Shown piece after piece: positions 3,039 to 64,000 of a stretch of 64,000 nt of DNA. Positions within the stretch are counted from its first letter, which is position 1, and each line of letters opens with the position of its first letter. The stretch covers positions 1 to 64,000 of the forward strand of contig CALVXU010000017.1 in the NCBI GenBank assembly GCA_944371605.1, given 5' to 3'. Made by a program: the position numbers and the translations under genes. Below the pieces are notes generated by a model, which did not search any database, was not told the origin of the DNA, and saw only the letters and a list, made by a program, of their open reading frames with translations. Origin of the DNA: an uncultured Bacilli bacterium (GTDB lineage: Bacteria > Bacillota_I > Bacilli_A > RFN20 > CAG-288).

Positions 3039-3584
3039 TCAATTTTTAGCGATTCTTAAAATGAGATTACGAACATCTTCAGTAGCGCCAAAAATGGCTA
3101 AGCAATACTTGATGCACTTATCTGCTGAAGGGAAATGTTTATTGATGACATAAGACTTGAGCTGCTCTAAAAAACCAGCAGCATAGAAAGAAGTCAAAGC
3201 TTCTTTCTGCTCGATATATAAGCCAACATAATCATCGATGTTTTCAAAGAATACATTATTCAAAACATCCTTAATATAATTAAAAAGGTTAGACCATAAA
3301 AGATTGCTTGCGACATCATCTTTCATGCACTCGTTGATAAAATCAGCATTTTTGTTAGCGAAATTAAAGAGATCACTGATGAGATAATCAGTTCTGATCT
3401 GTAACTTGAAAGTTTCATTCAAATAATAAACCAAACAATCATCGATAGTGTCAAAATAATAATAAAAGCTTTGTCTCGAGCAATGCAAACTTTTGCATAA
3501 ATTAGAGATAGACATTTTACTATAGTGTATCGATTGCAATTCCTTTACTAACTCTTTGGCAAATTCGTACTTTTTCTTATTCAT
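3039..3584 (-). CDS. TetR-like transcriptional regulator
   Basis: 181 residues with a strong AGGAGG ribosome site. The N-terminal 50 residues form a helix-turn-helix of TetR type: KMSISNLCKSLHCSRQSF then YYYFDTIDDCLVYYL. The rest is helical without recognised ligand motifs. The gene is upstream of the DUF1349 gene on the same strand (82-base gap). A LacI/CcpA-like AAAGCGCTTT palindrome at 3632-3641 stands just upstream of its start. Target genes are unknown. Confidence 0.75.
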   Translation of the reverse strand: MNKKKYEFAKELVKELQSIHYSKMSISNLCKSLHCSRQSFYYYFDTIDDCLVYYLNETFKLQIRTDYLISDLFNFANKNADFINECMKDDVASNLLWSNLFNYIKDVLNNVFFENIDDYVGLYIEQKEALTSFYAAGFLEQLKSYVINKHFPSADKCIKYCLAIFGATEDVRNLILRIAKN

Positions 3585-4048
3585 GACCTTCCTCCTAAGT
3601 AAAAGTGATATGATTGTATGGATAAAGCTTCAAAGCGCTTTAACTGTCATTAGATTAATACTTTATTTTTCTCAATGCAAATATTGCTTTTCAATGTCAA
3701 ACTATTGTCATTAACTATTTTACATTACTTATACAATGTGAATAAAAAAAGAGATGATAAATCGAACTATTTTTTTAATTATTCACTTTTTAATTGATAA
3801 GTTAATATCGTAAAAATTAATGATTTTTAGAAAAAATAAATATTCAAAATAAAAATAAACTTTTCAAGAATAAATCATGATAAAAACGAAATTCAAAAAA
3901 GAAGGTAGAATAGGACTTGATTACAAAAAGAGTGGTATTTATTCCTTGAAAAATAGCAAGATAAAACCCCTTCCATTTATTCTCTTTATTTTTATTGAAA
4001 TATGATAAAATATTATCTAGGGTTAAAACCGCATAAAGGGGAGGACAA
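3585..4048. other. Intergenic region between TetR and ppdK
   Basis: No gene is supported here. It holds the AAAGCGCTTT palindrome (3632-3641), very AT-rich DNA, an imperfect inverted repeat (TTTTCAAGAATAAAT near 3858-3874 against ATTTATTCCTTGAAAA near 3936-3953), and a probable ppdK promoter whose -10 lies in TATGATAAAAT at about 4003-4013, 35-45 bases ahead of the ATG. An open frame on the minus strand crossing 4049 is only the shadow of ppdK. Confidence 0.5.
3632..3641. promoter_or_regulatory. LacI/CcpA-like operator AAAGCGCTTT
   Basis: Perfect ten-base palindrome 48 bases upstream of the TetR start at 3584. The same AGCGCT core appears in three other intergenic regions (13044, 15787, 26492). 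It resembles operators of LacI-family regulators and the centre of cre sites. No LacI-family gene is present in the window. Confidence 0.45.
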
Positions 4049-56864: not shown

Positions 56865-57091
56865 AATAGCTGCTTACTAACTAAATAACATCTATGTTAT
56901 AGTTTTCATAAACTATACTCACAAATCATCTATGCTATTGAGATTAAAAAGTAACTAGACTATTGCGGTAATAAGATGAAAAGACTAATATGTCAAATTT
57001 AAACTACTTCAAAGATTCATTAAGCAATAAAACAATATCTTATTAATGATTAAATTAAAGCTTTGATATGTTCAAAATGGATCATTCCTAT
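56865..57091. other. Region downstream of the HipA-type module
   Basis: No gene. Contains a weak AT hairpin, TATAGTTT (56898-56905) / AAACTATA (56910-56917), after the 55479 gene. It lacks a T run, so its role as a terminator is doubtful. Confidence 0.3.
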
Positions 57092-57889
57092 TTATATTTT
57101 TAGTTGCAATAGGGTATCATTTTGATTTTGCAATTCTTTCTTAAGCCTATAGTATTTATTTATACTAACGCCGAGTAATTCAGCAGCTTTTTTATTAGTT
57201 ATTTCTTTTCTTTTTACTCTTTCAAAAACATCAAAGAATCTAATCGCTTCAACTAACACAGGCTTTCTGCCAACATAATGCCCACTCTTTTTAGCTAGAG
57301 CAATTCCCTGCTTTTGCTTATCTTTTAAGACTTTATATTGCATCTTGTATAGATAGTGAATTGTTTTAAAAACACTTTTATTGTTTATTTTATTATTTTT
57401 ATCAAGATAGACTTCATTATTTGAAGCGATTTCTTGAAGAATCATTTTTGAAATGCCAAAAGCATTAGCTTTTCCTTTGATTTCATCAATAACAACTTTT
57501 TTAGGTTTTTCATAATTTATTAAATATAGGCAATCTCCTGAATACCTGTCTTTAGTTTTAATTAAATATTCAATAGGATCCATATATGTCATATCGACTT
57601 TTTCAAGCAGTTCATAATAATCTTCCCTATTTTTAGATGGCACTCTTTCTGAAATAAAAACAGGTAAAATATTTTTTCTAATATATACTTCTTTCTTTAT
57701 ATCTAGATTGAGTCCAGGAATACCTTGAAAGACTCTGCTATCTAACAAATCGATGATGTCATAATTGGGATAAAAACGATATTCAAAAGTTTCATCTTCA
57801 TTAAGAAGATATTCTATGACACATACACGATATTCAATATTGAGATTATCTTTTACGCAAATTATTCCTTTAGTTAATATGCTTTTCAT
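57092..57889 (-). CDS. HipA-N-like domain fused to recombinase-type HTH (probable antitoxin/cofactor)
   Basis: 265 residues. Residues about 1-160 match the small N-terminal subdomain of HipA kinases: FEYRFYPNYDIIDLL, FQGIPGLN, IRKNILPVFISERVPSKNRE, DPIEYLIKTKDRYSGDCLYL. Residues about 185-260 match the DNA-binding end of serine recombinases: KQKQGIALAKKSGHYVGRKP, FERVKRKEITNKKAAELLGV, SINKYYRLKKEL. The recombinase catalytic domain is absent. In HipBST systems the separate HipA-N protein (HipS) is the antitoxin; here it carries its own DNA binder, replacing HipB. Overlaps the kinase gene by four bases. Its last codons lie in a 28-base repeat that also sits in the promoter. Confidence 0.8.
   Translation of the reverse strand: MKSILTKGIICVKDNLNIEYRVCVIEYLLNEDETFEYRFYPNYDIIDLLDSRVFQGIPGLNLDIKKEVYIRKNILPVFISERVPSKNREDYYELLEKVDMTYMDPIEYLIKTKDRYSGDCLYLINYEKPKKVVIDEIKGKANAFGISKMILQEIASNNEVYLDKNNKINNKSVFKTIHYLYKMQYKVLKDKQKQGIALAKKSGHYVGRKPVLVEAIRFFDVFERVKRKEITNKKAAELLGVSINKYYRLKKELQNQNDTLLQLKI
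57107..57134. repeat. 28-bp direct repeat, copy 1 (in last codons of 57092-57889)
   Basis: Begins CAATAGGGTATCATTTT and ends ATTTTGCAAT. Matches 58785-58812 at 27 of 28 positions (G for T at position 18). Read on the minus strand it encodes the end of the antitoxin-like protein (LQNQNDTLLQ). Confidence 0.9.
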
Positions 57890-58746
57890 TTTTGACTACC
57901 CATTAATTTCTCATAAGAGTATTTAATAATTTTCTTGAACCTTTCTTCAATCATCACTTTATAAAACTTTTTATGTATGTTTGAAATATAAAGCGAATCA
58001 ATCAAATTATTAATTTCTTTAATATTTATTCTTGGATAAATTTTAACTAATGCATCATTGCATTCTTTAAACTTTAATGATGAGATAACATCAAAATATG
58101 ATGACTTTCTATTATTGAGCTTGATTTGTGAAGTCGGAAATTCATAAATTCTTTTATTAATCTCTTTTTCATCATTTAAAATAAATTCCATTTCATCTTC
58201 ATTAATCATTTGTGGAAATAGGCAAGAGCCATTATCAAATATAGGCGCTAAAGTATACTTATTATCTCTTTTTAGAAAACCCCAATTCGCGCCATGGCGA
58301 TCGAAATTACCTATTAAAGCATCTACTATATACATCTCAAAAAATATGGAAATTGTCTCATCTATATCAGTGATTTTTCGATTTTTGTCTAAAAGTATAA
58401 TTATATCTTTATAACTATATTGATACTTTTCTTTATCTGTTTCAATTGTCGATTCTCCAACATCATTAAAAGGAACAAATTCAAATCCATCAATCACAAA
58501 ATCCTTACAAGCTACTACCCATTCATTTTTATATTTTCCTAAATAAGTTTTATGAACGTTGAATCCTAAATTATCAAAGATATGACTGCCTAAAAATTCA
58601 GAAAGATGATTATTTCTTTTTCCAAACTTTGTCATTGTTTGAAATTTAAGCATGTATGGCTGATCATCAATTAAAATCCCTAATTTTCTTTCTGAACCAC
58701 CATATCTGATGTTGCTTAATTTACAATTTGAAAAATCATAATACAT
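57886..58746 (-). CDS. HipA/CtkA-like Ser/Thr kinase
   Basis: 286 residues, no N-terminal subdomain, thus the short HipT/CtkA-like kinase form. Ser in the Gly-rich loop IRYGGSERKLGI (phosphorylatable Ser in relatives), Lys in YMLKFQT, NHLSEFLGSHIF, catalytic GNFDRHGANWGFL (Asp-Arg-His ... Asn) and metal-binding APIFDNGSCLF. Relatives phosphorylate aminoacyl-tRNA synthetases (HipA: GltX; HipT: TrpS) and arrest growth. Target here unknown. First gene of the module; a promoter with TTGAAA and TATAAT lies directly upstream, overlapping the second 28-base repeat. Confidence 0.88.
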   Translation of the reverse strand: MYYDFSNCKLSNIRYGGSERKLGILIDDQPYMLKFQTMTKFGKRNNHLSEFLGSHIFDNLGFNVHKTYLGKYKNEWVVACKDFVIDGFEFVPFNDVGESTIETDKEKYQYSYKDIIILLDKNRKITDIDETISIFFEMYIVDALIGNFDRHGANWGFLKRDNKYTLAPIFDNGSCLFPQMINEDEMEFILNDEKEINKRIYEFPTSQIKLNNRKSSYFDVISSLKFKECNDALVKIYPRINIKEINNLIDSLYISNIHKKFYKVMIEERFKKIIKYSYEKLMGSQK

Positions 58747-58757
58747 AATTCTATTTA

Positions 58758-58787
58758 ATTATAGAATATGCTTTATATGTATTTCAA
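58758..58787 (-). promoter_or_regulatory. Promoter of the HipA-type module
   Basis: On the minus strand TTGAAA (58787-58782), 18 bases, TATAAT (58763-58758), then the ATG at 58746. The first three bases of the -35 lie in the 28-base repeat (58785-58812), so a protein bound to that repeat would compete with RNA polymerase. Confidence 0.65.
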
Positions 58788-58812
58788 TAGGGTATCATTT
58801 TTATTTTGCAAT
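58785..58812. repeat. 28-bp direct repeat, copy 2 (upstream of the kinase promoter)
   Basis: Same orientation as 57107-57134 with one mismatch; start-to-start distance 1678 bases. The two copies bracket the module exactly. Confidence 0.9.
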
Positions 58813-59015
58813 ATCTGTTAATATTTCAATTCTCTTTGCAATTTTATAGTTGTATTTAGTCTTCGTTTTTTAATAAAAAACCTGATCACATATATTAAAT
58901 CTATGCTTTTAATATGAAGAATTAAAAAAATTAAAAGGATTAGAATAATCTTTATTTAGCACACAAAATATGTAAGAACAACACCAAATAGCAATCTAGT
59001 TTTACATCTAACACA

Positions 59016-60407
59016 TTATTTTTTTGGACTTTTAGTATCGATGCCATCGGATTGTTTGACATCTTTCGAATCATGGATAAACATCAAGTCGATTTCAAAC
59101 ATTTGATCTTGGCATGATATCTTCATTTCCCCATTATATTTTTCTGTGATCAATTTAATCGACTTTAATCCAAAACCATGATTACGATTGTCAGCCTTAG
59201 AAGTTAGCGGAAATCCGTTGACAAGTTTTAATTCGCCGCTATAAAAGTTTTTTGCAGATACAGAAATAATGTTGCCGATAGATTTTATTTTTAATCGAAT
59301 GTTTCTTTTTTCTATCGGTAATTTCTTAACCGCTTCTATCGCGTTATCTAATATGTTGCCGAACAAAGAATAAATATCTTCCTCAAGCATAAAAGATATC
59401 GCATCCCCATCAGCGATGCATGAGAAAATAATATTATATTTGTTACACAATAACGTTTTTTCACTCAAAATGACATTTAATGCAGCGTTTGAAGTTTTGA
59501 CTGTAGAATCATAGATATTGATCAATTTATTGATATTATTAATCGCCTCTTCATTAACATTTTGCTCTTTACCAAAGCGCCTGATCTGATGACGAAAATC
59601 ATGGCATTTGATATTGATCATGTCGATTGTTTCTTTAGATAAATGGTATTGGTTTTTTTCTTCGTTTCTGATCTCTGACAAAATCAGGTATTCTCTTTTA
59701 AGGTTACTAGAATAATACATCTCAAATAAAAATGATATACCGATAACACATGCAATCATATTAACCAAACTTGCTAATCCAATATAAGTTGGTTCATAAT
59801 GAATAGAGCTATAATATGATATCAAACTATTAAAAATGATATCTAATACAATAAATACAGCACCTATGATCAATATCTTGCCACTTCCTAGATTTTCAAA
59901 TATTTGACCTTTTTTAATCCTTCTAGCAAATAACAAAAACATTATCCAATACACGTTTATGTAAGACACTATCCAAAGAACGAAATCGATAGGATTGGCA
60001 AATAATGATAATTCATCATAATTATATAATCCACCAGAACGTACTTCCGTAGCCACTAAAAAACAATTCAAGGTGCTATATAGCTCATATGCTGTATGCT
60101 CAATCGTATATCCACACACCAAACAGAAGAATATCATTTTAGTATCTGCTTTGAAGAGAGTGAGACTTATGAAAAATGTGAATATAAAAAACAAGAAAAA
60201 CATCATCATCGAATAAAATGCATTACTAGTCGGAATCGGAAAGATGAGCGCGAATACAAAACATGCTAAAACTCCTAAGATCAATTTGAGTGTAAACTTT
60301 TCTTTTTTCTCTAATTTATAGCAGAATAGAGCTTCACCTAAAATGAGCAGAAGCATAAAAATCAAACGATAACAGAATAGTCCATTAATCGGATATAATT
60401 TTTCCAT
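59016..60407 (-). CDS. AgrC-like sensor histidine kinase (GHKL), cluster B
   Basis: Start ATG 60407 (MEKLYPINGLFCYRLIF), AGGGATG upstream. About 463 residues: six membrane helices to about 240, phosphoacceptor INIKCHDFRHQIRRF, N-box NILDNAIEAV, G-box NHGFGLKSIKLIT. Paralogue of the kinase at 16729-18078 throughout. Starts two bases after the regulator stop. Likely senses an extracellular signal tied to GH3 activity; ligand unknown. Confidence 0.93.
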   Translation of the reverse strand: MEKLYPINGLFCYRLIFMLLLILGEALFCYKLEKKEKFTLKLILGVLACFVFALIFPIPTSNAFYSMMMFFLFFIFTFFISLTLFKADTKMIFFCLVCGYTIEHTAYELYSTLNCFLVATEVRSGGLYNYDELSLFANPIDFVLWIVSYINVYWIMFLLFARRIKKGQIFENLGSGKILIIGAVFIVLDIIFNSLISYYSSIHYEPTYIGLASLVNMIACVIGISFLFEMYYSSNLKREYLILSEIRNEEKNQYHLSKETIDMINIKCHDFRHQIRRFGKEQNVNEEAINNINKLINIYDSTVKTSNAALNVILSEKTLLCNKYNIIFSCIADGDAISFMLEEDIYSLFGNILDNAIEAVKKLPIEKRNIRLKIKSIGNIISVSAKNFYSGELKLVNGFPLTSKADNRNHGFGLKSIKLITEKYNGEMKISCQDQMFEIDLMFIHDSKDVKQSDGIDTKSPKK

Positions 60408-60409
60408 GT

Positions 60410-61117
60410 TCACATCCCTAAAAATTTATTTAACTCTTGTAAAAAAGCTCTCTTTTTCGGATGAGATATGAGTATCTTGTTTCCTTTGATATAAAGATCA
60501 AACCCCTCAATCTTTTCTACATATTCTAAATTTACTAAAAAACAGGAATTACATAGTGAAAAATGATATGGCTGCAGTTCTTTTACAATATCTTTTAAAG
60601 CGCCATAAGTTTTAAAGTTTCCAGAGGAAGTGTGATAGATAATTTGATGATTAGCAATCTCTACATAATAGATATCTTTAACCAGCAAAACGATTTTAGA
60701 GCCGTTGGTTTGAATCAATACTTTTTCAGTCATTTTTTTGGAAATGATATCTACTATGACATTCATTCTTGATGCAAAATCAATATAATTAATCGGCTTG
60801 ACCATATAGTCAAAAGCATTTACTTTATATCCATCTAAAGCGTATTGAACTAGATTAGTTATAAAAACAATGATCACATCTTTATCAATTTCACGTATTT
60901 TATTTGCGACTATTATTCCATTGTCATTAGATGTCAAATCGATATCCAAAAAAATCAAATCATATTTTCCATAACAAAAATCAAAGAGCAATTGGTCCCC
61001 ATTATTGAACTTATCAATAGAAAACTTATGATTATTCTCATTTGAAAAAGCATCTATCATTTTACGAACATTATCTTGTTCAGATAAATCATCATCAACA
61101 ATTGCTGCTCTTATCAT
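60410..61117 (-). CDS. LytTR-family response regulator, cluster B
   Basis: Start ATG 61117 (MIRAAIVDDDLSEQDNV), AAGGAG six bases upstream; an upstream in-frame extension is promoter DNA. About 235 residues. Phospho-Asp in LIFLDIDLTSND, IFITN, MVKPINY; LytTR domain with IYYVEIANHQIIYHT and FSLCNSCFLVNLEYVEKIEG. Paralogue of 18080-18793. A TATAAT (minus strand, 61148-61143) and TGTACTGA elements lie upstream. Confidence 0.95.
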   Translation of the reverse strand: MIRAAIVDDDLSEQDNVRKMIDAFSNENNHKFSIDKFNNGDQLLFDFCYGKYDLIFLDIDLTSNDNGIIVANKIREIDKDVIIVFITNLVQYALDGYKVNAFDYMVKPINYIDFASRMNVIVDIISKKMTEKVLIQTNGSKIVLLVKDIYYVEIANHQIIYHTSSGNFKTYGALKDIVKELQPYHFSLCNSCFLVNLEYVEKIEGFDLYIKGNKILISHPKKRAFLQELNKFLGM

Positions 61118-61176
61118 TAAAATCTCCTTGAATTTAGCATTAATTATATAGAACTTGAAGTAGTAATATAGCAAAA

Positions 61177-61250
61177 ATGTACTGAACCTTATTTTCAATC
61201 AGTACAATAAATATTTATTATACTTTCTTTATATTAAAGGTTCAGTACAT
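61177..61250. promoter_or_regulatory. Inverted and direct TGTACTGA elements upstream of the LytTR gene
   Basis: ATGTACTGAACCTT (61177-61190) and AAGGTTCAGTACAT (61237-61250) are exact inverse complements 46 bases apart. A third TCAGTACA is at 61199-61206. Two direct copies on the minus strand are 43 bases apart, about two LytTR repeat periods. Placed just above the regulator's promoter; autoregulation is inferred. Confidence 0.6.
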
Positions 61251-61309
61251 AGTTAGAAAGAAAGAGGTATTAATATCCGTTAATTTTTACGCACCCTTTT
61301 CTTAAAATC

Positions 61310-61834
61310 TCATTCATTTGCAGATTTAGAAGCTTCTTTATCTACAAGGTCTTGATGATGGAGAATGATCATAGCTGATGGATAAGAAGCGACAATAGTC
61401 AGAAGACCGAAGACAGGGACCAAGAAATAAGCAGCTTCGAATTTGATCACACCTTGATTTAACGATAGTGCAGTATAATCAGTGAAGCCTTTCGCATATA
61501 AGAATGAGCAAGCCAAGATGACCGCACCAATCAAGATTGTGACTATGCTTCCGATAGCTAAGCCGGTTGTCAATTTCTCATTAGACTTGTTTATAAATAA
61601 GAGAACGGTTAAAGCTAAAGAAGCTACGGTACCCAAGATAATACAGATGATTCCTAAATACATGATTCCACCTGAATCAGAAGTCAACTGCATCAAAGAA
61701 ATAGCCGGACTATCATCTCCCATCTTATCGTTCCAAATAGCAGGAATAAATAAGAAGATAAAGGCTAAGATACCGAATAGACTAGCGACAGCTTGCCAGA
61801 TGGCATATCTAATATTTTCAGCTAATGATTTCAT
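61310..61834 (-). CDS. Four-helix membrane protein of cluster B
   Basis: 174 residues with four helices (about 12-33, 50-75, 85-110, 130-160), short loops and a charged tail (HHQDLVDKEASKSANE). No family recognised. Two bases after the stop of the GH3 gene, so same operon. Position suggests a membrane partner of the tethered glycosidase, as does the 87-residue protein in cluster A, though the two are not visibly homologous. Confidence 0.65.
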   Translation of the reverse strand: MKSLAENIRYAIWQAVASLFGILAFIFLFIPAIWNDKMGDDSPAISLMQLTSDSGGIMYLGIICIILGTVASLALTVLLFINKSNEKLTTGLAIGSIVTILIGAVILACSFLYAKGFTDYTALSLNQGVIKFEAAYFLVPVFGLLTIVASYPSAMIILHHQDLVDKEASKSANE

Positions 61835-61836
61835 AA

Positions 61837-63999
61837 TTAGGCCTCTTTTCTCTTTTTCTTAAACCAAGTGAAATAAACCATCGTTCCAGCTCCACCTAGC
61901 ATACCGACACCAAGGACTGAATCAATAGCGATGAGTGTTGGTCTCCACCACTTACCAGAAGTATTGTTCTCTCTGTTTCCAAGAATGACGTTCATATCAA
62001 TACCAGTAGCATTTTCAGTTCTATAAATCGTATCAATATAAGTATAAAGAATATTTTTAGCTGATTTTTGCAAAGCGATGACAGCGGTTGCAGAAGGATT
62101 ATTCCAGTTTTCATCAAATGCTTGTGCGACATTATCACCAGGTTTTAAGGCGATATCATTACCAGCTCTGATTCCTTCGTCTAAATCATTGACATCACCA
62201 CTTTGATAATAGTCTGTGATACAACTTCCTCTAAAGCCCCATTCATCTCTTAACAATCCTGTTAATAAAGCATGACTTCCAGTAGCTCTAGTAGCACCGA
62301 TTCTATCAACAGAGACCATCATAGCATTGGCTCCACCAACCTTAGTAGCAATCTCACCTGGTTTAGCCCAAATCTCTCTCAATGATTGTTCAGTCATCCA
62401 AATAAACTGACCATTTCTACCTTCATCAGTATCATTAGCAGCAAAGTGCTTCATATAAGCATAAACACCATTTTCAGTGCAACCTTTGACAGTATAAGCG
62501 ACGAACATACCACACATATAACCATCTTCAGCAAAGTATTCAAAATTACGTCCGCCTAATGGAGATCTGTGAACATTGCATCCAGGAGCATACCATCCTT
62601 GCTTATTGATAGCTTGTCCTTCTTTACCGATAGCGGTTCCCCATTCATAGGCACAACGATAGTCCCATGTGGAGCCTAAAACGTTGGCAGCAGGATACTT
62701 TGTAGCATGCATTTTGCCATCTCCAGAAACACCATTAGTAAATCCAGTACCGCCATCACTATCATTACAATAACCTTTTTTAATACGAGTGATAGCTTGA
62801 GTGCTGAATCCACCGTTAGCACATAATCTAGTCATCTCATCGATGGTCAAACTGCTGATCAATTCGTCCCATTTCGGATCATCATATGGCAAACCTTTGA
62901 CATCGTCTAAAGTGACTGGAGTATAGCTGTCATCTTTAGCATATTCAGGCATCACATCATCAGGATTGACCATATTGGAATCAGTTGGGCTGCTGACTTT
63001 ATAAACATTTTGATAGAAACTCATCGAAGCGCTTCTAGTCGCAGTTCTTTCTGGATAAGTGCCTTTAAAATCAGCTCTTGAGAGATAAGTAACACCTTGA
63101 TTATAATCAGGGCTCGGGTCGTTACCATCTATAGAAAGCCCATATTTCACTAATGGTTCTTTGATAGTAGAAGAGGCACCACTAGTAGGATTTGTGTAGT
63201 TGGTGAATAAATTTTCAACCTTTGTTCCAGTTACTGGATCATTTTCGACTTTATATCCGGATTCAGGAACTCTAAAAGTGTATTCTAAATTTTTTCCATC
63301 TTCACCGACTTTAACATGGTGAGAATCGGTTCTGAATGAAAATGTATAATCGCCGCGGTCTAATTCATATCCCATGAAGCCGTTGTTATTCTTATCGTAA
63401 GTATCATAAGAAGCTAAATCAGTGACCTTGACATCGATTGACAATAATTGACCTTGTCCGGGATCTAATGAGACTGTTTTAGCAAATCCGACTAAAACTT
63501 GGGAAGCTTTTTCAATCTCGCCTTTGTAATATGGTGTGTGCACATATAATTGAACGACCTCTTTACCAGGATAAGAACCCGTGTTTTCAACCCAAATATT
63601 AAAAGTCAATGTATCGTTTATATTAATATCTGATAAGTCAGTGATCTCTTTGCCATCTTGATTGACGACAGCAGGAACGGAATGTGATGAGCCATCTTCA
63701 TCAGTGACCGTTAAATTAGTATTCACCCAATTAAATGTTGTATAGCTTAGTCCATATCCGAATGGATATTGAACAACAGCATCATAACCAGTTTTTGTCT
63801 GACCGTATTCATCCCTGGTTTCATCAGCGAAGAATCCTTCTTCATCAGCTGTTTCATACCATTTATATCCGACATAGATATCTTCAGCATAGTCTTTATA
63901 ACGACCTGTTGGTTGTCCAGTATAAGTGATTGTTGCATCCGGACCAGAATTGACATAGCTAGGGGCAGATTTGATGCTATAAGCCGCAGTATCAGTCAA
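61837..63999 (-). CDS. Domain-permuted GH3 glycosidase, cluster B (5' end beyond window)
   Basis: 720 residues visible, open at the window edge. Order: end of the GH3 C-terminal-type domain (DIYVGYKWYETADEEGFFAD), QYPFGYGLSYTTFNW and fibronectin-III-like domain (about 75-225), linker, then the GH3 barrel (about 370-650) with SDGGTGFTNGVSG, APGCNVHRSPLGGRNFEYF, YMKHFAANDTDEGRNG and nucleophile Asp in SCITDYYQSGD (near 596), and a C-terminal membrane helix with KKKRKEA. Same inverted domain order and C-terminal anchor as 23096-26125. Extracellular glucosidase or xylosidase is likely; substrate unknown. Confidence 0.93.
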   Translation of the reverse strand: MTDTAAYSIKSAPSYVNSGPDATITYTGQPTGRYKDYAEDIYVGYKWYETADEEGFFADETRDEYGQTKTGYDAVVQYPFGYGLSYTTFNWVNTNLTVTDEDGSSHSVPAVVNQDGKEITDLSDININDTLTFNIWVENTGSYPGKEVVQLYVHTPYYKGEIEKASQVLVGFAKTVSLDPGQGQLLSIDVKVTDLASYDTYDKNNNGFMGYELDRGDYTFSFRTDSHHVKVGEDGKNLEYTFRVPESGYKVENDPVTGTKVENLFTNYTNPTSGASSTIKEPLVKYGLSIDGNDPSPDYNQGVTYLSRADFKGTYPERTATRSASMSFYQNVYKVSSPTDSNMVNPDDVMPEYAKDDSYTPVTLDDVKGLPYDDPKWDELISSLTIDEMTRLCANGGFSTQAITRIKKGYCNDSDGGTGFTNGVSGDGKMHATKYPAANVLGSTWDYRCAYEWGTAIGKEGQAINKQGWYAPGCNVHRSPLGGRNFEYFAEDGYMCGMFVAYTVKGCTENGVYAYMKHFAANDTDEGRNGQFIWMTEQSLREIWAKPGEIATKVGGANAMMVSVDRIGATRATGSHALLTGLLRDEWGFRGSCITDYYQSGDVNDLDEGIRAGNDIALKPGDNVAQAFDENWNNPSATAVIALQKSAKNILYTYIDTIYRTENATGIDMNVILGNRENNTSGKWWRPTLIAIDSVLGVGMLGGAGTMVYFTWFKKKRKEA

Positions 64000-64000
64000 G

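Follow-up and report, generated by a model that had tools for sequence, protein, structure and literature searches.

The window analysed here is a 64,000-nucleotide stretch (positions 1 to 64,000, forward strand) of contig CALVXU010000017.1, from an uncultured Bacilli bacterium (GCA_944371605.1, here G000). It contains a hipMP operon on the minus strand, in which the gene for a HipA-type kinase, HipM, is followed by that for a putative antitoxin, HipP; the two genes overlap by 4 bases. The features discussed below are listed in Table 1. It is worth adding that a GHKL histidine kinase gene (59016-60413) adjoins a LytTR response regulator gene (60410-61198). The kinase has fourteen matches in the 1.43-Mb genome, which suggests a marked expansion of GHKL/LytTR-type two-component systems in this species.

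Table 1. Features of the hipMP locus, in window positions.
Feature	Positions	Strand	Description
hipM	57886..58746	-	286 aa, HipA_C / CtkA-type Ser/Thr kinase
hipP	57092..57889	-	265 aa, putative antitoxin/autorepressor, resolvase-like DNA-binding C-terminus
HipP residues 207-254	57128..57271	-	GRK arm and helix-turn-helix; Lys245 in recognition helix
hipM promoter	58758..58787	-	-35 TTGAAA, 18-base spacer, -10 TATAAT; 11/12 matches
R2, promoter-proximal operator copy (putative)	58782..58812	-	its TTGAAA right arm forms the hipM -35 box
R1, 3' operator copy (putative)	57104..57134	-	lies in the final hipP codons; not followed by a -10 box
Segment between R1 and left flank, about 221 bp	56883..57103		no counterpart in G012
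Right flank	58813..64000		98.9% identical to module-free G012 up to repeat edge

HipM matches Pfam HipA_C from residue 16 (1.8e-15) and CtkA over residues 3-281 (profile E 9e-71), and the kinase motifs GNFDRH and DNG are invariant among the aligned orthologues. It is a short HipA-core kinase that has no HipA N-subdomain-1. For HipP, searches of Pfam and NCBIfam with the single sequence gave sub-threshold helix-turn-helix matches only, and a family profile was therefore required. Over HipP residues 117-257, this profile matches Tn552 Bin3 and gamma-delta resolvase, with values for resolvases of 1e-6 to 8e-4, chiefly in the DNA-binding half; Tn552 Bin3, gamma-delta and Tn3 resolvases are matched from their residue 53-56 onward. 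The catalytic serine region of the resolvases was found in HipP neither by the family profile nor by fold search. The structure model of HipP has a pLDDT of 92, with low confidence at residues 258-265. Foldseek against the PDB returned nothing for the model below E=0.09 and no full-length fold match, the only sensible matches being the DNA-binding parts of resolvases and NtrC. The N-terminal half has no solved relative and no resolvase fold match in these searches. HipP would act as the antitoxin of the pair.

A scan of GTDB species genomes gave 106 stretches encoding HipP relatives, and the 80 that were kept come mostly from Bacillota, with some from Actinomycetota. In most of the loci fetched, a kinase gene lies directly upstream of hipP. 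Two loci (L115, L121) have hipMP on contigs from rumen assemblies that are labelled as a methanogenic archaeon, which could be transfer or misbinning.

The first-pass annotation reported near-identical 28-bp direct repeats bracketing the kinase module, one in its promoter and one in its last codons. Recomputation agrees: 27 of 28 bases are identical between 57107-57134 and 58785-58812, and the repeat extends to 31 bases with 29 identical. When the 2.2-kb region around the module was resampled 150 times under a first-order Markov model, the best match over 31 bases had 22.6 identities on average and 25/31 at most. The two copies, here called R1 and R2 (together R), have the same orientation. 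R2 ends in the -35 box of the region's best promoter-like site, and the upstream regions of relatives have the same promoter geometry, while R1 is translated as ...LQNQNDTLLQ... at the end of HipP. The annotation also proposed a search for further copies; with up to 3 mismatches the whole 1.43-Mb genome gave only the two places already known.

A motif of the same design occurs upstream of hipMP modules across Bacillota. It has the form arm-CAAAAATAAAA..ATACCCTATTG-arm', and is 31-37 bases long. Most of about 76 modules have such an upstream site, 48/76 by a regular expression. A site HMM places one where expected in the majority of loci, and its reversed-sequence control gave 1 match at a score of at least 8. 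The right arm of the motif, TTGnnn, forms the -35 box. It is followed 16-19 bases on by a -10 box (at least 5/6 matches) in 50% of the upstream sites, versus 9% in shuffled sequences, and in 0/11 of the 3'-end sites. The arm sequences vary between modules, usually with the dyad symmetry kept (TGTGT/ACACA, TGCGT/ACGCA, ATTTG/CAAAT). These observations suggest that the repeat is the operator of HipP.

Other clades carry second operators elsewhere, as tandem copies close to the ATG or as inverted ones upstream, so that two sites per module are not rare, their place differing. Inverted pairs about 40-60 bp apart lie upstream in L098 (4900-4969) and L106 (4836-4927), and also in L088, L092, L096 and L104. 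Tandem operators flank the promoter in L107, L114, L122 and L133-L141. Butyrivibrio is a single-operator clade. Two loci have other repeats, which differ in sequence from R: a 37-bp terminator-like direct repeat flanks the module of L094 (around 3117-3967), and an imperfect 60-bp direct repeat lies upstream and downstream of that of L109. Orphan hipP genes, intact or nearly so, are present in L054, L080, L084, L098, L103, L106 and L120; each is immediately preceded by an operator-like site, and no kinase gene was found within the fetched flank. L045 is a frameshifted version of an orphan hipP. A phage carrier of the module was considered and is unsupported, since IMG/VR yields neither a HipP relative nor an exact match to the operator.

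The arm sequences go together with the recognition helix of HipP. Residue 245 is Lys or Arg in 10/10 modules with G.C arms, and Thr in 45/45 modules with other arms. The Lys-type proteins form one clade in the tree, and the correlation therefore amounts to roughly one evolutionary switch, for which a nominal p value is not usable. The Thr-type helix also agrees with the arms where a site stands at each end of the module: in L047 both copies have TCTCAA...TTGAc/gA arms, and in G209, which lies outside the Lys clade and has a Thr protein, both copies are of the other arm type.

For the first-pass annotation, a lack of the repeats in close homologues of the module would have counted against its readings; the pair is in fact present in them. 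In ten modules of the order, hipP has a second site at its end (G000, G099, G004, G067, G075, G038, G083, G154, G103 and G209). Within a locus, R1 and R2 are more alike than permuted pairs (identity 0.884 versus 0.763, p=5e-5), and the mean identity of orthologous copies is 0.75. The mismatches between R1 and R2 cluster at positions 10-12, and changes in the arms and flanks are common to both copies. Such a pattern is more readily explained by a single protein recognising both copies than by recent duplication. The related modules L040, L041, L078 and L081 have no 3' copy, which is therefore not essential.

A genome of the same genus, G012, has one intact R at the syntenic place (C1:324302-324331), as the first-pass annotation had predicted for an empty site. 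There is no kinase match and no HipP match in this genome, which is to be read with the caution that most of the genomes, sampled at one per species, were assembled from metagenomes, and that gene absence is weak at 80-90% completeness. The solo site is inside a 338-kb contig and sits between two convergent genes, so that it is not the promoter of a neighbour. Three other genomes have solo copies with no recognisable module remnants, namely G052 (again between convergent genes), G044 and G022 (contig C101). Decayed modules beside a site were found in G010, G155, G160 and G165, and G178 is cut by a contig end. A reversed control of the strict site pattern gave 0 matches over 279 genomes.

The alignment of the window to G012 (58782-64000, 98.9%) begins at the first base of the repeat. 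This edge is no proof of recombination, because presence or absence of the module alone would give the same edge. On the left the flank is syntenic but only 64-82% identical, and the segment next to R1 is missing from G012 (Table 1). The history of the G012 locus is therefore more complex than one deletion, and the missing segment and the unequal divergence of the flanks show that it also underwent other exchange. The near-identical block runs for about 12 kb, from the window (58782-64000) on to about 70979 of the same contig (G000:C17), at 93-99% identity, compared with 65-82% in the remaining aligned parts of this contig; we take it as a recent horizontal exchange between the two species. 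Transfer by recombination at R was considered as a source of the 98-99% identity of the right flank and set aside, homologous exchange ending at the module edge explaining it equally well.

In a second comparison, the locus that holds the module in G067 has neither module nor R in its relative G068, and the insertion extends beyond the R copies by 192 bp at one end and 1.7 kb at the other. The G067 operon, within locus L203 (G067:C1 34000-52000), is in a 3.6-kb variable stretch. Next to this stretch, about 180 bp are conserved in most genomes of the genus and look like tRNA genes. The flanks of the G004 and G052 sites gave no clean pair of empty and occupied loci.

On the basis of these observations we propose, with a probability of roughly 0.7 for the account as a whole, that R1 and R2 are twin operators of HipP. 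A HipP dimer would bind the 30-34-bp site through its resolvase-type DNA-binding end, and, bound over the right arm with its -35 box, would repress its own operon. The operator in the last codons of hipP would co-evolve with the promoter one, being kept in step because the same HipP must recognise both. R1 would probably aid repression, either by titration or because joint binding at the two sites would loop the 1.7-kb operon. The first-pass annotation offered as one of its readings that the protein binds both sites and loops the module for autorepression; of this, binding with autorepression has good support at the promoter copy and indirect support at the 3' copy, and looping is plausible. 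As a by-product, the operon would be framed by direct repeats of about 30 bp, and recombination between R1 and R2 would delete hipMP precisely and leave one operator as a scar. G012 matches what such a deletion predicts, having one intact site, no hipMP, and the outer flank of R2 on one side. Across the family R comes with hipMP, single-copy modules included, whereas a host attB site would be present independently of the element, and the single R in a module-free genome is for this reason best read as a scar. The module-specific nature of the operator, together with the G067 insertion ends, which lie off the repeats, likewise makes a deletion scar fit better than attB.

The other first-pass reading, that the module is a small cassette integrated at an att-like 28-bp site, would have R-hipM-hipP-R as a mobile unit, in which HipP or a recombinase acting in trans recombines the R copies and a circle leaves or re-enters a solo R. 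The empty site that it called for exists, at the syntenic place in G012; the solo copies in G052, G044 and G022 also favour it, as do the resolvase-like DNA-binding part of HipP and module alignments across unrelated contexts, which end 0-35 bp from the R copies. But the catalytic part of a recombinase is not there: the repeats enclose no genes other than hipM and hipP, the HipP profile matches resolvases only from residue 55, without the serine region, and the N-terminal half lacks a resolvase fold match. Nor does R behave as an independent target, being the hipMP operator family-wide, single-copy modules included, and differing between copies at positions 10-12; and neither the absence of both module and R from G068 nor the insertion ends in G067 suits integration at R. 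We consider a mobile cassette unlikely. A combination, in which the operator doubles as a recombination site, is more doubtful still: once HipP had paired the operators, the module would be excised or re-inserted, either by host recombination or by a serine recombinase supplied in trans. If true, whether the toxin operon is physically lost or gained would be under the control of its own antitoxin.

Other explanations concern the 3' copy itself. It could be an accident, the decaying remains of a past duplication that is alike to R2 only by gene conversion and has no regulatory role. Its absence from several related modules and its want of a -10 box are what one would expect of such a remnant, as are the mismatches in the R1 arms (TTACAA in G099, AATGCA in G038 and G075). 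Yet the copy is held by ten modules, the distant L047 branch among them, and the sharing of arm and flank changes while positions 10-12 drift is unlike the outcome of gene conversion; an accident thus seems rather improbable. Alternatively, the sequence could be conserved for the encoded peptide LQNxNDTLLQ, its likeness to the promoter being a coincidence. Five modules (G000, G099, G004, G067 and G083) do read R1 through in the same frame. In L076, L077, L079 and L086, by contrast, the frame stops inside R1 and the remainder of the DNA site is kept, which contradicts selection on the peptide; moreover, the resampling excludes a chance match, and the model is of low confidence at residues 258-265. 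We give this explanation hardly any credence. The account of twin operators and a deletion scar is thus preferred.

The hipMP system was named by Gerdes et al. 2021 (PMC8262856) as a short HipA-type kinase with a downstream putative antitoxin resembling gamma-delta resolvase, and the operon described here has the same kinase without N-subdomain-1 and the same resolvase-like HipP downstream. Those authors postulated, without data, that HipP is a DNA-binding autoregulator and antitoxin; the main text names no operator, and theirs is the only paper using the word hipMP in the literature searched. Both proteins also match the candidate defence system PDC-M03 of PADLOC, HipM its A component, the kinase (5e-30), and HipP the HipP-like B component (1.4e-7); no paper using that name was found in the same literature. 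hipMP has thus been known since 2021 from sequence alone, with its autoregulation a guess. What is new is a predicted family-wide operator, its recognition-helix correlate, a second putative operator at the 3' end, and the solo copies. With an operator named and a recognition-helix position linked to it, specificity swaps can be predicted. Twin operators would offer a simple route to clean loss of a toxin-antitoxin operon, and solo operators mark where this may have happened.

Toxin-antitoxin pairs occur among pdif modules. The pdif or dif modules of Acinetobacter plasmids (e.g. PMC6449649) are small sets of genes bounded by short recombination sites, which are XerC/XerD sites; R, by contrast, varies with HipP and is part of a promoter, and this covariation speaks against reading the hipMP module as one of them. 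There is also a likeness to E. coli hipBA, in which the antitoxin's binding sites are palindromic operators of its own promoter (PMC8262856), an arrangement predicted here from sequence. The two systems differ in that HipB has a Cro-type helix-turn-helix and hipB precedes hipA, while HipP has a resolvase-type DNA-binding part and hipP follows the kinase gene, and in that the hipMP operon described here has one of its putative operators at the operon end.
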